Positions 12,601-20,087 of a DNA stretch of 64,000 bases are shown here, in pieces; position 1 is the first letter of the stretch, and every line of letters starts with the position of its first letter. The notes beneath the pieces were generated by a model that was given only the letters and a program-made list of their open reading frames with translations, made no database searches and was not told the origin of the DNA. Origin of the DNA: Granulicella tundricola MP5ACTX9. Lineage in GTDB: Bacteria > Acidobacteriota > Terriglobia > Terriglobales > Acidobacteriaceae. Location: contig NC_015064.1 in NCBI RefSeq assembly GCF_000178975.2, positions 1,860,001 through 1,924,000 on the forward strand. The letters run 5' to 3'. A program made the position numbers and the translations under genes.

Positions 12601-13008
12601 TTAAACCCGCACGAGCGAGTGAACGCTCGCCAACAGGTGATCCGGCAGCAGAGGCTTCCGGCGGAACATGACATTCATCCCCACGTACTGTTCTTCCGCC
12701 TCTTCAAGCCCGCTGATCACCAGCACCGGCAAAACCGGATGGCTCTTGCGCAACTCCCCCACAAACTCTGATCCCGTCATCCCCGGCATCAGGTGATCCG
12801 TAATCACCAGTTTAATCTCGGCAGGGAAGTCATTGGCCTGGAACTGCTCCAGCGCTCTCACCGGATTCAACGCCGCAATCACAAAATATCCGGCACGCTT
12901 CAGGATCGTCTGCCGGGTCGCTGCCTGCACTGCATTGTCGTCGATCAGCAAAATAGCCGTCTCGTCTGCCTTTGCCTCTTCAACCCGTTCTGTTCCGTTC
13001 AAATCCAT
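12601..13008 (-). CDS. Stand-alone response-regulator receiver domain protein
   Basis: A 135-residue single-domain receiver (CheY-like) with no output domain. The acidic pocket Asp23-Asp24, phospho-acceptor Asp71 (VITDHLMPGMTG), switch Ser99 (VLVISG) and Lys118 (RRKPLLP) are all in place, so it should be phosphorylatable. Residues 1-17 are a charged leader. No histidine kinase lies next to it; it is divergent from the SSS-family symporter gene. It may relay phosphate between distant partners (inference). Confidence 0.85.
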   Translation of the reverse strand: MDLNGTERVEEAKADETAILLIDDNAVQAATRQTILKRAGYFVIAALNPVRALEQFQANDFPAEIKLVITDHLMPGMTGSEFVGELRKSHPVLPVLVISGLEEAEEQYVGMNVMFRRKPLLPDHLLASVHSLVRV

Positions 13009-15324: not shown

Positions 15325-15551
15325 TCCATGCCCTCTCGATCAACTCGCGCCGCCAAAGCAGAAGTTCCATCAACTCCCGCTGCGTCCGTGCGTCATAACC
15401 CGTCATTGTAGGCCAGCAAAACGTTTGGACGCAGCCAGAACTTCGCTTCGTTCTCACCCTGCCGAATATGAATATGCACCGGTTAAGGAGGATTCCCTTT
15501 ATTGGAATAGAAGAAAAACGTAAACCCACGCTCTCGGAACACCACCGGCAT
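15308..15551 (-). pseudogene. DUF4160 gene broken by a nonsense codon and a frameshift
   Basis: From ATG at 15551 the - strand reads MPVVFRERGFTFFFYSN-KGNPP, then TAA where the family has GAA (Glu), then PVHIHIRQGENEAKFWLRPN. After NDG an extra G shifts the frame; the family-like tail YDARTQRELMELLLWRREL continues in the neighbouring frame to the stop at 15308. Two independent lesions in a gene of about 80 codons argue for real decay rather than one sequencing error. The 3' end overlaps the start of the intact DUF2442 gene. Confidence 0.8.
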
Positions 15552-15618
15552 GGCACCATACTACCAACGCCTTTCACTGCTTTTGACAGCGCTATGCTGC
15601 CTCACACTGGAGCCTCAC

Positions 15619-15879
15619 ATGGGTCTCGACATCCGCATCCCTCTCGGCCTCATCTTCCTCATCACCGGCGGAATCATGGCCCTCTACGGCTTCGTCACCC
15701 GTCACGACGCAGCCCTCTATGCGCCATCCATGGGCGTCAATCTGAACCTCACCTGGGGAGCCCTGATGGCTGTCTTCGGCCTCGTCATGTTCCTCGTCGG
15801 CCGCCGCCAGAAGTGGCAGGACGACCCCGTCACCCCTCGCCCCTGGGAGCGCGACGCCACCACCAAACCCCGCCACTAA
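15619..15879 (+). CDS. Small two-helix membrane protein
   Basis: An 86-residue protein starting MGLDIRIPLGLIF with two membrane helices (LGLIFLITGGIMALYGFV and LTWGALMAVFGLVMFLVG) and a polar tail ending in RPWERDATTKPRH. An upstream in-frame Met at 15550 would add residues overlapping the DUF4160 remnant on the other strand. No family recognised beyond a conserved-looking hypothetical membrane protein. Confidence 0.6.
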   Translation: MGLDIRIPLGLIFLITGGIMALYGFVTRHDAALYAPSMGVNLNLTWGALMAVFGLVMFLVGRRQKWQDDPVTPRPWERDATTKPRH

Positions 15880-16057: not shown

Positions 16058-17488
16058 ATGACACCTCAATCAGCCTTCGCGGTCCCGACGCATTCGCAAT
16101 CCGCTTCCCCGGCAGTCCAGGCGCTGATCATGGCACGCGGCCGCATGGCCGACGCCGTCCGCACCTGGAACTGGTCCGCCACGCCCCTCGGCCGCATCGA
16201 GCAATGGCCTGAGCCCCTCCTCGCCCACGTCAATCTCGCCCTGTCCTTCCCCATTCCGGCAGTCGTCCACTGGGGTCCGGAGATGCACATGGTCTTCAAC
16301 GACGCGTACGCAGAGCTCCTCGGACCTGAAGGCCACACCTACCTCGGCCAATCTGCCCCCATCGTCTGGAAACCCCTCTGGCCCCAGATCGAATCGCTGT
16401 ACAGCAGCGTCCGCCGGACAGGCGAGTCTATCTCCGGTAATGACCTCCTCATTCCCGTCGATCGCGACGGAACCCTCCGCGACGTCTTCTGGTCCTACGC
16501 GATCGCCCCCATCCACCATCAGCAGACCGTCGCTGGAATCTTCAACACCGCACGCGACACCACCGCCACCGTCGCATCGTTCAACGCACTCGTCCAAAGT
16601 GACGAGCGCCTCCGCCTCGCGCTCTCCGCCAGCGATTGCATCGGCATCTGGGACTGGCACATTCCCTCGGACATCATCCACGCGGAGCAGGACTTCGCTC
16701 TCTTTTACGGCCAGGATCCCCAGCGCGCCAGGCTCGGCATCCCCAGAACCGAATACTTCGAAAAGGTCCACCCGGACGACCGCGTGCCGCTCGACGACGC
16801 CCTCTGGTATGCCATCCAGAACTTTACCGAGGTCCTCGCGGACTACCGTCTTCTCCCGCCCGACGGCTCCGTCCGCTGGGTCCAGGCCAAGGGCCGCTGT
16901 TTCTATGCAGAGGACGGCTCTCCCACCCGCTTCTCCGGCATCAGCATCGATATCACCCGCCGCAAGATCGCAGAGGCCGCCCTGGCCGAGACGCGCATGA
17001 CGGCCGCCGCGCAACCACCCAAAGTCGCCCTCGCCCCCAAAATCGAAGCCCCCCTGGCCTCCATCGCCACGATCCTCCGCCTCGCCCGCTCCACCGACGA
17101 CCTCACGGAGGTCCAGCGCTTCCTCGTCGTCGCAGAGCGCGAGGTTAACCGCATCGCCGACCTCGCCTGCCCGCCTGCCGAATCCACATCAGACGCCCCC
17201 CAATCCGCCCCCGCGCCCATCCTCCCACCCGCCACCCCCACGCTCCTCTGGCACATGGAGATTCTCGTCAGCACCATCGCCCGCTCTCTCGCGGAGCGCA
17301 AGGATGACGTCCGCGTCAGCATCATGCGTCGCGCAGAGGGCATCACTTTCCTCCTCCAGGTCGCCGCCGACGATCTCGCCCGCGTCCTTGGACCCCAGGG
17401 CCGCACCGCCCAGTCCATGCGTTCGCTCCTGGACGCTGCCGGTATCCGCAGCAACCAGCAATTTTCGCTCGATATTGAAGCCACCTAG
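16058..17488 (+). CDS. PAS-PAS / HisKA-like / KhpA-type KH domain fusion protein
   Basis: A 476-residue cytosolic protein. Residues 35-170 hold a first PAS region with the RTWNWSATPLGRIEQWP lead-in common in sensor kinases. Residues about 188-306 hold a PAS_3-type domain (GIWDWHIPSD; VRWVQAKGRCFY). Residues 322-371 align by eye with a histidine-kinase dimerisation helix, but the AHEINNPL-type box reads APKIEAPL (327-334), so the phosphoacceptor His is missing. No HATPase follows. Instead, residues 398-475 match a KhpA-like KH domain: MEILVSTIARSLAERKDDV, LLQVAADDLARVLG, the GxxG loop GPQG at 445-448 followed by RT, and QFSLDIEA at the end. This suggests a ligand- or redox-sensing RNA-binding protein. 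A Ser/Thr kinase gene follows 79 bases downstream. Confidence 0.75.
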   Translation: MTPQSAFAVPTHSQSASPAVQALIMARGRMADAVRTWNWSATPLGRIEQWPEPLLAHVNLALSFPIPAVVHWGPEMHMVFNDAYAELLGPEGHTYLGQSAPIVWKPLWPQIESLYSSVRRTGESISGNDLLIPVDRDGTLRDVFWSYAIAPIHHQQTVAGIFNTARDTTATVASFNALVQSDERLRLALSASDCIGIWDWHIPSDIIHAEQDFALFYGQDPQRARLGIPRTEYFEKVHPDDRVPLDDALWYAIQNFTEVLADYRLLPPDGSVRWVQAKGRCFYAEDGSPTRFSGISIDITRRKIAEAALAETRMTAAAQPPKVALAPKIEAPLASIATILRLARSTDDLTEVQRFLVVAEREVNRIADLACPPAESTSDAPQSAPAPILPPATPTLLWHMEILVSTIARSLAERKDDVRVSIMRRAEGITFLLQVAADDLARVLGPQGRTAQSMRSLLDAAGIRSNQQFSLDIEAT

Positions 17489-17567: not shown

Positions 17568-20087
17568 ATGAAGCGCCGCATCATCAGCCATTACGAGTTC
17601 GTCCGCAAGATCGGAGCAGGCGGCTCCGGAGTCGTCTTCCTCGCCACCGACACGCTGCTCCAGCGCCCCGTCGTCCTCAAGCTCCTCAAGCGCGGCGCGC
17701 TCACCGCCGAGCAGGTTCGCACCACCCAGCTCCGTGAGGCACGCCTGGCCTCCGCCATCGATCACCCCAACGTCTGCGCCATCTATGAGGTCGGCGAAGT
17801 CCCCGCAGAGTCCGGCGACGGTGCCGAAGCCTACATCGTCATGCAGTACATCCCCGGCCAGGCGCTCGACAAGCTCATAGCCGCCGGCCCCGCCAACCTC
17901 CAGCTCGTCCTCTCCGCCGGCATTCAGATTGCGGACGGTCTAGCCGCCGCGCACTCCCTCGGCATCTTCCATCGCGACCTCAAGCCCGCCAACGTCATGC
18001 TGACCGAAGGCGGCCTCATCAAGATCCTCGACTTCGGCCTCGCCCGCCGCCTCAATCTCGACGAGACCGAGTTCGATCCCAGCGGTAACTCCGGCACCGC
18101 CGGCCGTCGCCCCGTCCCACCCCCCGGAGCCACTTACACCGCACGCGGCGGCACCATCGCGTACATGGCGCCGGAGCAGTTCGTCACCGGCCAGTCCTCC
18201 GTCCAGTCGGACCTCTTCGCCCTCGGCCTCATCCTGTACGAGCTCGTCACCGGCCGCCACCCCTTCCATCGCCCGGACGCACCGGAGTTCCAGTCCATCC
18301 GCGCCATCCAGTTCGCAGACCCTACCCCCCCGCGCGAGATCAACCGCAACATCCCCATCGAGCTCCAGTCCGTCATCCTCCGCTGCCTGGAAAAGCAGCC
18401 CAGCGCCCGTTTCGCCTCCGCAGCGGACCTCCGAGAAGCCCTCAAGACCATCATGATGGCCCACCAGCTCGATACCGTAGGTCCCCCCGGCGAATCCGTC
18501 ACCCTCCTCCCCTCCCAACGCCCCCCGGCGGTTGAAACCCCGGAAGAAGAAAAGCGCACCACCGGCATCCTCTCCATGCTGGCGGAGCGTTTCCGCGAGT
18601 CCGGCCCCACCGCCACCACCGCGAAGCAAAACACCCTCGTCGTCCTGCCCTTCATCAACTTCGGCACCTCCAGCAAGCAGAACGAGTCCCAGCCTTCGCC
18701 CCTCTACGGGTACGCCCTGGCCGACGCCCTCGCCGCCCGCCTCGCGCGCATGCCTTCCCTCATCGTCCGCCCCTCGTCTTCACTAGCAACCATCCCAACG
18801 CATCAGCTTGATCCCTTGGCGATAGGCCGCAAGCTCCTCGTCCACTACGTCCTCGCCGGCAACTTCCTCCGCTCGGACCAGGGCTTCGACCTCAACTGGC
18901 AGCTCCTCGACGTCAACGGCCAATCCGTCCGCACCGGCGGCAGCATCAGCGTCGCCAGCTTTGACCTCGTCGCCGTCCAGACCGAGATCTCCAACGAAGT
19001 CTTCTCCACCCTCCAGGGCATCGGCGGCCTCACCACCAGCCATCACGCCGCCCAGCCCTCATCCCTCTCCCAGGACAACTCGGAGGACTACCTCCAGGCC
19101 CGAGCCGTCCTCAGCTCCTTCATGTCCCGCACCGGCAGCAGGGAAGACCTGGACCGCGCCCGCGAGCTCTTCGAGTCCGTCACCACCCAGGACGTCGACT
19201 TTGCCCCCGGCTGGTCCGGCCTCGGCATCACGCACCTCCAGTACGCCTCCCACGGCCTCGGCGGCCAGATGCATGTCCTGGAAGCTCGCCGCGCCTTCGA
19301 TAAAGCCCTCCAGCTTGACCCCGGCTCGGTCGAGTCCAACCTCTACCGCGTCTACATGCTCCTCAGCCGAGGCGAAAAGGAATCCGCCCGTCACGGCATC
19401 GAGAACCTCCTCCAGTCCGCCGGCAACGACTGGAACGTCCACCTCGTAGCCGGCCAGACCCTACGCATCGACGGCATGTACGAAGAAGCCCTCGAGCAGT
19501 TCAACACTGCCCTCCGCCTCAACCCCTCGAACGCCGCCCTCATCTACAACAACCGCGCCCGAGTCTTCCAATATCAAAATCAACTCGAACTAGCCGCCGA
19601 CGAGTTGGAAAAAGGCCTAACCCTCGAACCCAAGCAGCCTCTCCTCCGCATCTCCCTCGGCTACCAGCAGATGCGCACCGGAGACCTGGCCAAGGCCATC
19701 GAGACCCTCGAAAAGGTGACCAGCGAAGAGAAGTCCCTCCGCATCGTCTACCCCACCATCGCCCTTTGCTACGTGCAGTTGGGCGACCGCGAAAAAGCCG
19801 CCACCTTCATCGTCGACGAGACCCTGAGCGCCGCGGAAGCCGACTCCGAGATGGCCTACCGCCTCGCAACCTACTTCGCCCTTGAAGGCGACGAGTCCGA
19901 AGCCCTCCACTGGCTCCGCCGCGCCATCTATCTCGGTAACGAGAACTACCCCTGGTTCTCCATCAACCCCGCCTGGCGCAAACTAGGCGGCCACGGAGAC
20001 TTCGAAAGAATCCTCGAAGACCTGAAAAAGTCCTTCCGCAAAAACCAGAAAAACTGGCGCCGCCTCCTGGCCCAACTCCGCGACTAA
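17568..20087 (+). CDS. Ser/Thr protein kinase with FlgO/TolB-like domain and TPR repeats
   Basis: An 839-residue protein. Residues about 9-290 form a Hanks-type kinase with Gly-rich loop GAGGSG (16-21), Lys38, Glu57, HRDLKPAN (135-142), DFG (155-157) and [10 protein letters not shown], so it should be catalytically active. Residues about 350-500 resemble the TolB/FlgO-like nucleotide-cyclase-associated domain ([31 protein letters not shown]). The rest is TPR repeats ([53 protein letters not shown]). No membrane helix was seen. It directly follows the PAS-KH gene in the same direction, so the two may be co-transcribed and functionally linked (inference). Confidence 0.88.

Follow-up and report, generated by a model that had tools for sequence, protein, structure and literature searches.

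A PAS–PAS protein of Granulicella tundricola carrying a KhpA-type KH domain on a former sensor-kinase frame: a candidate signal-gated RNA-binding regulator

The window analysed here is the whole 64,000-nucleotide stretch of contig NC_015064.1 of Granulicella tundricola MP5ACTX9, whose genome is given in PMC4148992 as 5,503,984 bases including five plasmids. The gene of interest encodes a protein, termed P0001, in a frame that runs uninterrupted across 476 codons from an ATG start to a TAG stop, with a GC3 of 0.77-0.89 in all five segments (Table 1). It is flanked by a gene for a 109-residue protein and, after a gap of 79 bp, by a gene for a Ser/Thr protein kinase. Coding on the opposite strand was rejected, the longest reverse ORF (16073-17014) being without a Pfam match. 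A phage or defence origin was also rejected, with zero matches in PHROGs for P0001 and three paralogs, and in PADLOC for P0001 and one operon pair. On the opposite strand, 3 kb upstream of P0001, a single-domain response regulator (Pfam Response_reg; window 12601-13008) adjoins a gene that by reading resembles one for cytochrome c biogenesis.

Table 1. P0001, its parts and its two neighbours (window coordinates)
Feature	Position	Strand	Basis or remark
PAS-PAS-(HisKA-like)-KH protein P0001, 476 aa	16058..17488	+	open frame; Pfam domains
First PAS domain, PAS_4, residues 81-172	16298..16573	+	Pfam, whole-protein E 1.3e-9
Second PAS domain, PAS_3, residues 207-295	16676..16942	+	Pfam E 4e-13; solved relative 3mr0_A
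Decayed HisKA/DHp stretch, residues 326-369	17033..17164	+	Pfam below cut-off; alignment to intact kinases; helices of full-length model
KhpA/KhpB-type KH domain, residues 403-473	17264..17476	+	Pfam, NCBIfam, profile vs shuffles, model, fold matches
GxxG loop GPQG, residues 445-448	17390..17401	+	sequence; alignment-column check
Upstream neighbour, 109 aa, without Pfam match	15550..15879	+	conserved left border of insertion site
Downstream Ser/Thr protein kinase with TPR repeats	17568..20087	+	widespread in genus; right border of insertion site

The N-terminal half of the initial annotation, i.e. two PAS regions followed by a HisKA-like part lacking its His, was borne out. Pfam assigned the PAS regions to PAS_4 and PAS_3 domains, and gave a weak, sub-threshold HisKA match at residues 332-369 (12.5 bits against a cut-off of 26.9). 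The box APKIEAPL (residues 326-333) aligns with AHEINNPL of kinases, with Pro327 at the position of the phosphoacceptor His, and Pro327 is again opposite the His in the alignment with a second kinase (L055:2132-3721). The closest intact relative identified is a sensor histidine kinase of the same genus (genome G139, L132:7208-8914), which comprises PAS, PAS, HisKA (31.8 bits), and HATPase domains and is 43% identical across 344 residues (24-367 of P0001). P0001 thus shares the PAS–PAS–HisKA frame of the PAS–PAS kinases of the genus, but differs from them by the Pro in place of the His and by the absence of the HATPase domain. Beyond residue ~370 the clear similarity to the G139 kinase ends, and P0001 continues into a linker rich in proline, followed by the KH domain, where the kinase has its HATPase. 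As initially noted, no HATPase was found in the P0001 frame by Pfam (E ≤ 10). The same domain was sought in the other five frames between 17000 and 17700, where a frameshift might have placed it, and was found in none of eight of the nine stop-free pieces of at least 45 residues (one piece of 63 residues was left out), their sole Pfam match being to the protein kinase encoded next door, at its beginning. An ATPase domain restored by correcting a frameshift, which the initial annotation named as a refuting outcome, thus did not emerge from the pieces scanned. Together, the alignments and domain scans support a decayed HisKA part and a missing ATPase domain in P0001.

The C-terminal region of P0001 matched the Pfam family KH_KhpA-B (PF13083) with 51.3 bits against a cut-off of 32.1 (residues 403-473; E 1.1e-13). 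KhpA-type models of NCBIfam cover residues 400-471, under their full-length cut-offs, and the solved MBP–KhpA fusion 7xqc matched residues 404-464 in phmmer (E 2.4e-5). A profile of canonical KhpA scored 60.6 bits against P0001, with 2000 shuffled versions of its C-terminal 100 residues reaching at most 7.3 bits; the profile contains 32 rows, of which two (L054 and L106) are canonical by their rpsP/rimM neighbours, and the other 30, the best-scoring copies of the genus, were taken as canonical. The AlphaFold2 model of residues 390-476 alone, built with two homologs, showed the order α-β-β-α-α-β with a pLDDT of 88.3. The model of the whole protein was poor (pLDDT 54), showing helices at 327-345 and 349-370 and the same α-β-β-α-α-β order at 394-475. 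In fold comparison, the 390-476 model was most similar to chains of bacterial ribosomes, which we take to be ribosomal protein S3 (Z-score, 9.6; rmsd, 2.4; 78 aligned residues), followed by an archaeal RuvB-like helicase (5yww; Z-score, 9.5; 71 aligned residues) and the KhpB/EloR–RNA complex of Thermus (9lri_A; Z-score, 9.4; rmsd, 2.6; 81 aligned residues). Foldseek returned the KH domain of S3 (1wh9), Era, and NusA with modest E-values (best, 3.6e-4; three matches at E ≤ 0.001). The KhpA-like KH domain with GPQG at 445-448, proposed initially with the reservation that structure prediction might reveal no KH fold, is thus confirmed by Pfam, the shuffles, and the predicted structure as a KhpA/KhpB-type KH domain of predicted type-II fold, with the GxxG loop before the last helix.

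KhpA-type domains are unusually numerous in this genome (G000), which contains ten PF13083 domains above the cut-off, of which eight stand alone and two are fused; the rpsP–khpA–rimM copy (L054, C5:2496053-2496268) is located between the genes for ribosomal S16 and RimM. At least one KhpA-type domain is present in all 62 genomes of the genus, exactly one in 40 of them, and higher numbers were counted in G153 (six), G157 (four), G122, G138, G139, and G175 (three each), and fifteen others (two each), the counts for G140 and G153 each including one partial match below the cut-off. In a family sample of 120 genomes from 79 genera, G. tundricola included, PF13083 was matched at E ≤ 1e-4 in 112 genomes and in none of the remaining 8; the other 111 matching genomes have one copy each, except for two in G033, G035, G042, and G117, and in none of the 119 genomes other than G. 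tundricola does an open frame with a KhpA-type match (E ≤ 1e-4) exceed 207 residues. Across the phylum, a match at E ≤ 1e-6 was found in 270 of 297 genomes, and outside the genus no genome had more than three copies among the matches listed. That one species should have ten copies, where one is usual, is surprising by itself. Partial KhpA-like pieces also occur (L059:7070-7243, L105:6463-6797, and L113:6508-6669), the first ~450 bp from a plasmid-borne PAS–PAS–KH gene described below, suggesting turnover within the family.

The surroundings of the KhpA-like genes are varied. At L056, L100, and L102, in different genomes, such genes share a neighbouring block of three genes, by reading two for membrane-type proteins and one for a DNA-binding regulator, which suggests one old KhpA-like locus. 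At L060:6830-7528, a KhpA-like gene lies ~200 bp behind a gene for a small protein that by reading is cold-shock-like, and two more cold-shock-like proteins are encoded within 3 kb of KhpA-like genes at L055 and L060. In G139, a PAS histidine kinase gene (L119:6924-8006) and a KhpA-like gene are convergent, with 42 bp between the kinase gene and the KH domain, and the neighbours of other KhpA-like genes include a response-regulator-like protein (L121), a Crp-type regulator (L113), and a sigma-region-2 protein (L111).

Three further PAS–PAS–KH fusions emerged from the search for PAS–KhpA proteins suggested in the initial annotation. One is encoded on a plasmid of G. tundricola itself (C2, pACIX903; L059:7694-8962, minus strand), and the others in Granulicella aggregans M8UP14 (G153, L107:5754-7064) and in the lichen MAG cladonia7 (G175, L108:5947-7269). 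In all three, KH and one or more PAS models score above the cut-off; in the L108 protein, the second PAS was matched, and the first was deduced by aligning the three proteins. The alignment shows no HisKA relic in any of the three. A profile search of 398 family genomes (best four candidates per genome, E ≤ 1e-70) returned the full PAS–PAS–KH order, among the matches listed, in the G. tundricola plasmid and in G153, the G175 fusion not being among these matches. The related-loci search with P0001 gave no match, and in the plasmid collection, four records span 80% or more of the plasmid-borne fusion, each at an identity below 60%. A KH domain of G133 in an open frame of 271 residues was not counted as a fusion, KH alone being over the cut-off.

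These three fusions form one clade in both the PAS tree (100/100) and the KH tree (98/86). The KH domain of P0001 is not placed in this clade and sits on a long end branch (1.81), in a tree built from 75 columns. In the PAS tree of eight rows, the shortest path from P0001 leads to the G139 kinase and the next shortest to the trio, and the split between fused proteins and kinases is supported at 70/82. One common origin of the four fusions was considered and set aside, as the KH tree groups three and leaves P0001 unplaced; the PAS tree is compatible with one origin. Since the KH domain of P0001 lies outside the trio clade, the four fusions do not make up one tested family. Our tentative reading is that P0001 is an independent second fusion.

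PAS and KhpA are joined not only in single proteins but also in operons. Comparison of gene neighbours identified five stand-alone KhpA-like genes directly upstream, on the same strand, of a gene for a PAS–PAS protein devoid of a kinase: L061 and L062 in G. tundricola, L117 in G138, L122 in G122, and L123 in G175. The distances between the two genes are 77 bp (L061), -1 bp (L062, with a TGATG overlap), 23 bp (L117), -23 bp (L122), and 55 bp (L123); the L122 overlap hinges on the start of its PAS–PAS protein, which has 398 residues, or 443 from an earlier possible start. The PAS–PAS proteins consist of 386-412 residues, in which Pfam detects neither a kinase nor any other output domain. A genus-wide search (E ≤ 1e-25) yielded six full-length members of this partner family including the query, five of which adjoin a KhpA-like gene; the match in G175 has one TAA flagged, its open frame being 396 residues, and for the member in G123, no KhpA-like gene was detected in the surrounding 12 kb (unfiltered profile search; top score, 4.3 bits). 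Because the five operon PAS–PAS proteins are mutually related, the operons may represent one inherited event and not five. The vicinity of separate PAS and KhpA genes suggests that their products act together. The L062 operon (L062:7931-9393; C5 ~1,072,930-1,074,390) is located, by reading, downstream of penicillin-binding-protein-like and RodA-like genes and upstream of an RNase E/G-like gene, a suggestive place, given the action of KhpA/EloR on the pneumococcal elongasome (PMC6403258).

From its domain composition and predicted KH fold, and by analogy with known regulators, it appears on balance probable that P0001 functions as a one-component, PAS-gated RNA-binding regulator. The two PAS domains would constitute the sensing half, which is probably a dimer, as in the ancestral kinases, and the old HisKA helix pair would be kept as a dimerising signal helix that is no longer phosphorylatable, with the KhpA-type KH domain standing in place of the lost ATPase domain. 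A ligand or a redox change at the PAS domains could then shift the helix pair, and this shift would move two KH domains into or out of an RNA-binding position via their GxxG loops; another possibility is that the third KH helix mediates pairing with further KhpA paralogs in the cell. RNA binding, dimerisation, gating, partners, and ligand are what we infer for P0001; the regulator reading is supported by the domains themselves, the predicted KH fold, the lost kinase residues, the likeness to an intact kinase, and the repeated association of PAS with KhpA. In NasR, a sensor domain gates an RNA-binding domain, with autoinhibition relieved by nitrate (PMC7496416), and in PAL (PAS-ANTAR-LOV), sensor domains likewise gate an RNA-binding domain (PMC12797116).

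Alternatively, the KH domain may serve mainly as a protein–protein module that pairs with a stand-alone KhpA paralog and recruits or titrates it, the partner being the one to contact RNA. As reported in PMC6403258, KhpA homodimerises and also binds the KH domain of EloR, and nine other KhpA-type domains of the genome could provide partners for P0001. Over the whole G. tundricola genome, no R3H domain exceeds the cut-off (best, 16.3 bits against 26.8) and no KhpB/Jag partner was found, which would leave KhpA paralogs only one another as pairing partners. The suggestion from the operons that neighbouring PAS and KhpA products act together also fits such pairing. The loop sequences bear on both sides of the question: GKQG is present in all 32 rows treated as canonical, and the GPQG of P0001, without this lysine, weakens the claim of RNA binding. 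On the other hand, GxxG is kept in 34 of the 39 non-canonical KH rows, P0001 among them, which is beyond the need of a pure dimeriser; a Lys or Arg lies within the motif in 30 of these 34, P0001 being one of the four without. (The 39 rows include the four fused domains and one second KH beside another, L116b; rows with fewer than 55 aligned residues, namely L105, L113, and L059:7070-7243, were dropped.) Overall, we regard this alternative as unlikely, albeit the most serious of those considered, and gated RNA binding by P0001 itself remains our preferred reading. Among the operon copies, L061 has GVQG and L122 has lost the motif (AHEG). The related KhpA-like copies L112:6406-6612 (G153) and L121:6668-6877 (G122) carry GDDG or GSDQ, and GDDG is the laboratory change that abolishes RNA binding by KH domains; judged from these loops, some KhpA paralogs may have lost RNA binding.

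The distribution of P0001 raises the further alternative of a by-product of domain shuffling in a KhpA-rich genome, i.e. a recent insertion that is decaying and has no selected function. Full-length P0001 is present in one of the 62 genus genomes (E ≤ 1e-45, best 26 candidates per genome), and there are hence no orthologs showing constraint, whereas the downstream Ser/Thr kinase is present in 60 of the 62. For the 11 relatives in which this kinase was matched best, we compared the 1.5 kb upstream of it. Seven of them (L167, L168, L169, L170, L171, L172, and L174) have the site without P0001, the symporter and the 109-residue protein being followed by the kinase with ~85-390 bp between match ends; P0001 occupies this interval between the 109-residue gene and the kinase in the window. 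In L173, the 109-residue match ends ~1.4 kb before the kinase with no P0001 match between, and L175-L177 have neither the symporter nor the 109-residue protein in the stretch examined. An insertion with flanking repeats was rejected, since no repeat pair of at least 12 nt brackets P0001 (15840-17640). Besides this patchy occurrence, the long KH end branch and the partial KH copies elsewhere would suit a decaying by-product. Against it stand the intact frame with its even GC3, the retention of the predicted KH fold and of GxxG, and the recurrence of the PAS–KhpA pairing in three other fusions and five operons, and we consider it distinctly improbable. Finally, an ordinary sensor histidine kinase misread through a frameshift or an unrecognised ATPase domain, to which the 43% identity to a true kinase might point, is almost certainly wrong in view of the HATPase scans of the frame and of eight of the nine other stop-free pieces, the Pro in place of the His, and the predicted KH fold of residues 390-476.

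P0001 shares with stand-alone KhpA the PF13083 match above the cut-off, the predicted α-β-β-α-α-β order, and the GxxG loop, but differs from the KhpA of rpsP–khpA–rimM in its length of 476 residues, in having the KH domain behind PAS–PAS and a HisKA relic, and in its location away from rpsP/rimM, as well as in the loop itself (GPQG versus GKQG). With KhpB/EloR/Jag it has in common the Pfam KH family and the modelled fold similarity to 9lri; in contrast to these proteins, no R3H domain follows its KH domain in the Pfam scan. The ANTAR one-component regulators NasR and PAL resemble P0001 in combining in one protein a sensor and an RNA-binding output, the latter putative in P0001, and, by analogy, in the kind of mechanism proposed, whereas the output of P0001 is a KH domain on a sensor-kinase frame, no ANTAR being among its Pfam matches at E ≤ 10; elsewhere in the genome, a single ANTAR match does exceed the cut-off. 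Signal-gated RNA-binding one-component regulators are already known as a kind (ANTAR), and the signal-gated RNA-binding regulators known in bacteria are mainly ANTAR and CAT-RBD (PRD) proteins. The literature searched, which left most subscription journals outside its scope, reports no PAS–KhpA combination; papers on KhpA with histidine kinases or paralogs have no such protein in their titles or abstract openings, and those on KH with PAS domains are mammalian or medical by title and name no such protein. As far as these searches go, neither a KH output on a kinase frame nor a KhpA–PAS operon has been described.

KhpA is widespread, and the control of its activity is poorly understood. If P0001 is a sensor with a KhpA output, a defined sensor could be switched while KhpA–RNA binding is measured, and the protein would be an example of a kinase frame re-used for post-transcriptional control. 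More tentatively, and with rather less confidence than for P0001 itself, KhpA might in part of the genus have changed from a lone housekeeping RNA-binding protein into an interchangeable output module of signal transduction, through which PAS sensors that lost a kinase, or never had one, would act, either fused (four proteins) or adjacent (five operons), the up to ten KhpA-type domains per cell then forming a network of paired, signal-specific RNA-binding regulators. P0001 may thereby represent a new bacterial route linking signal to RNA.
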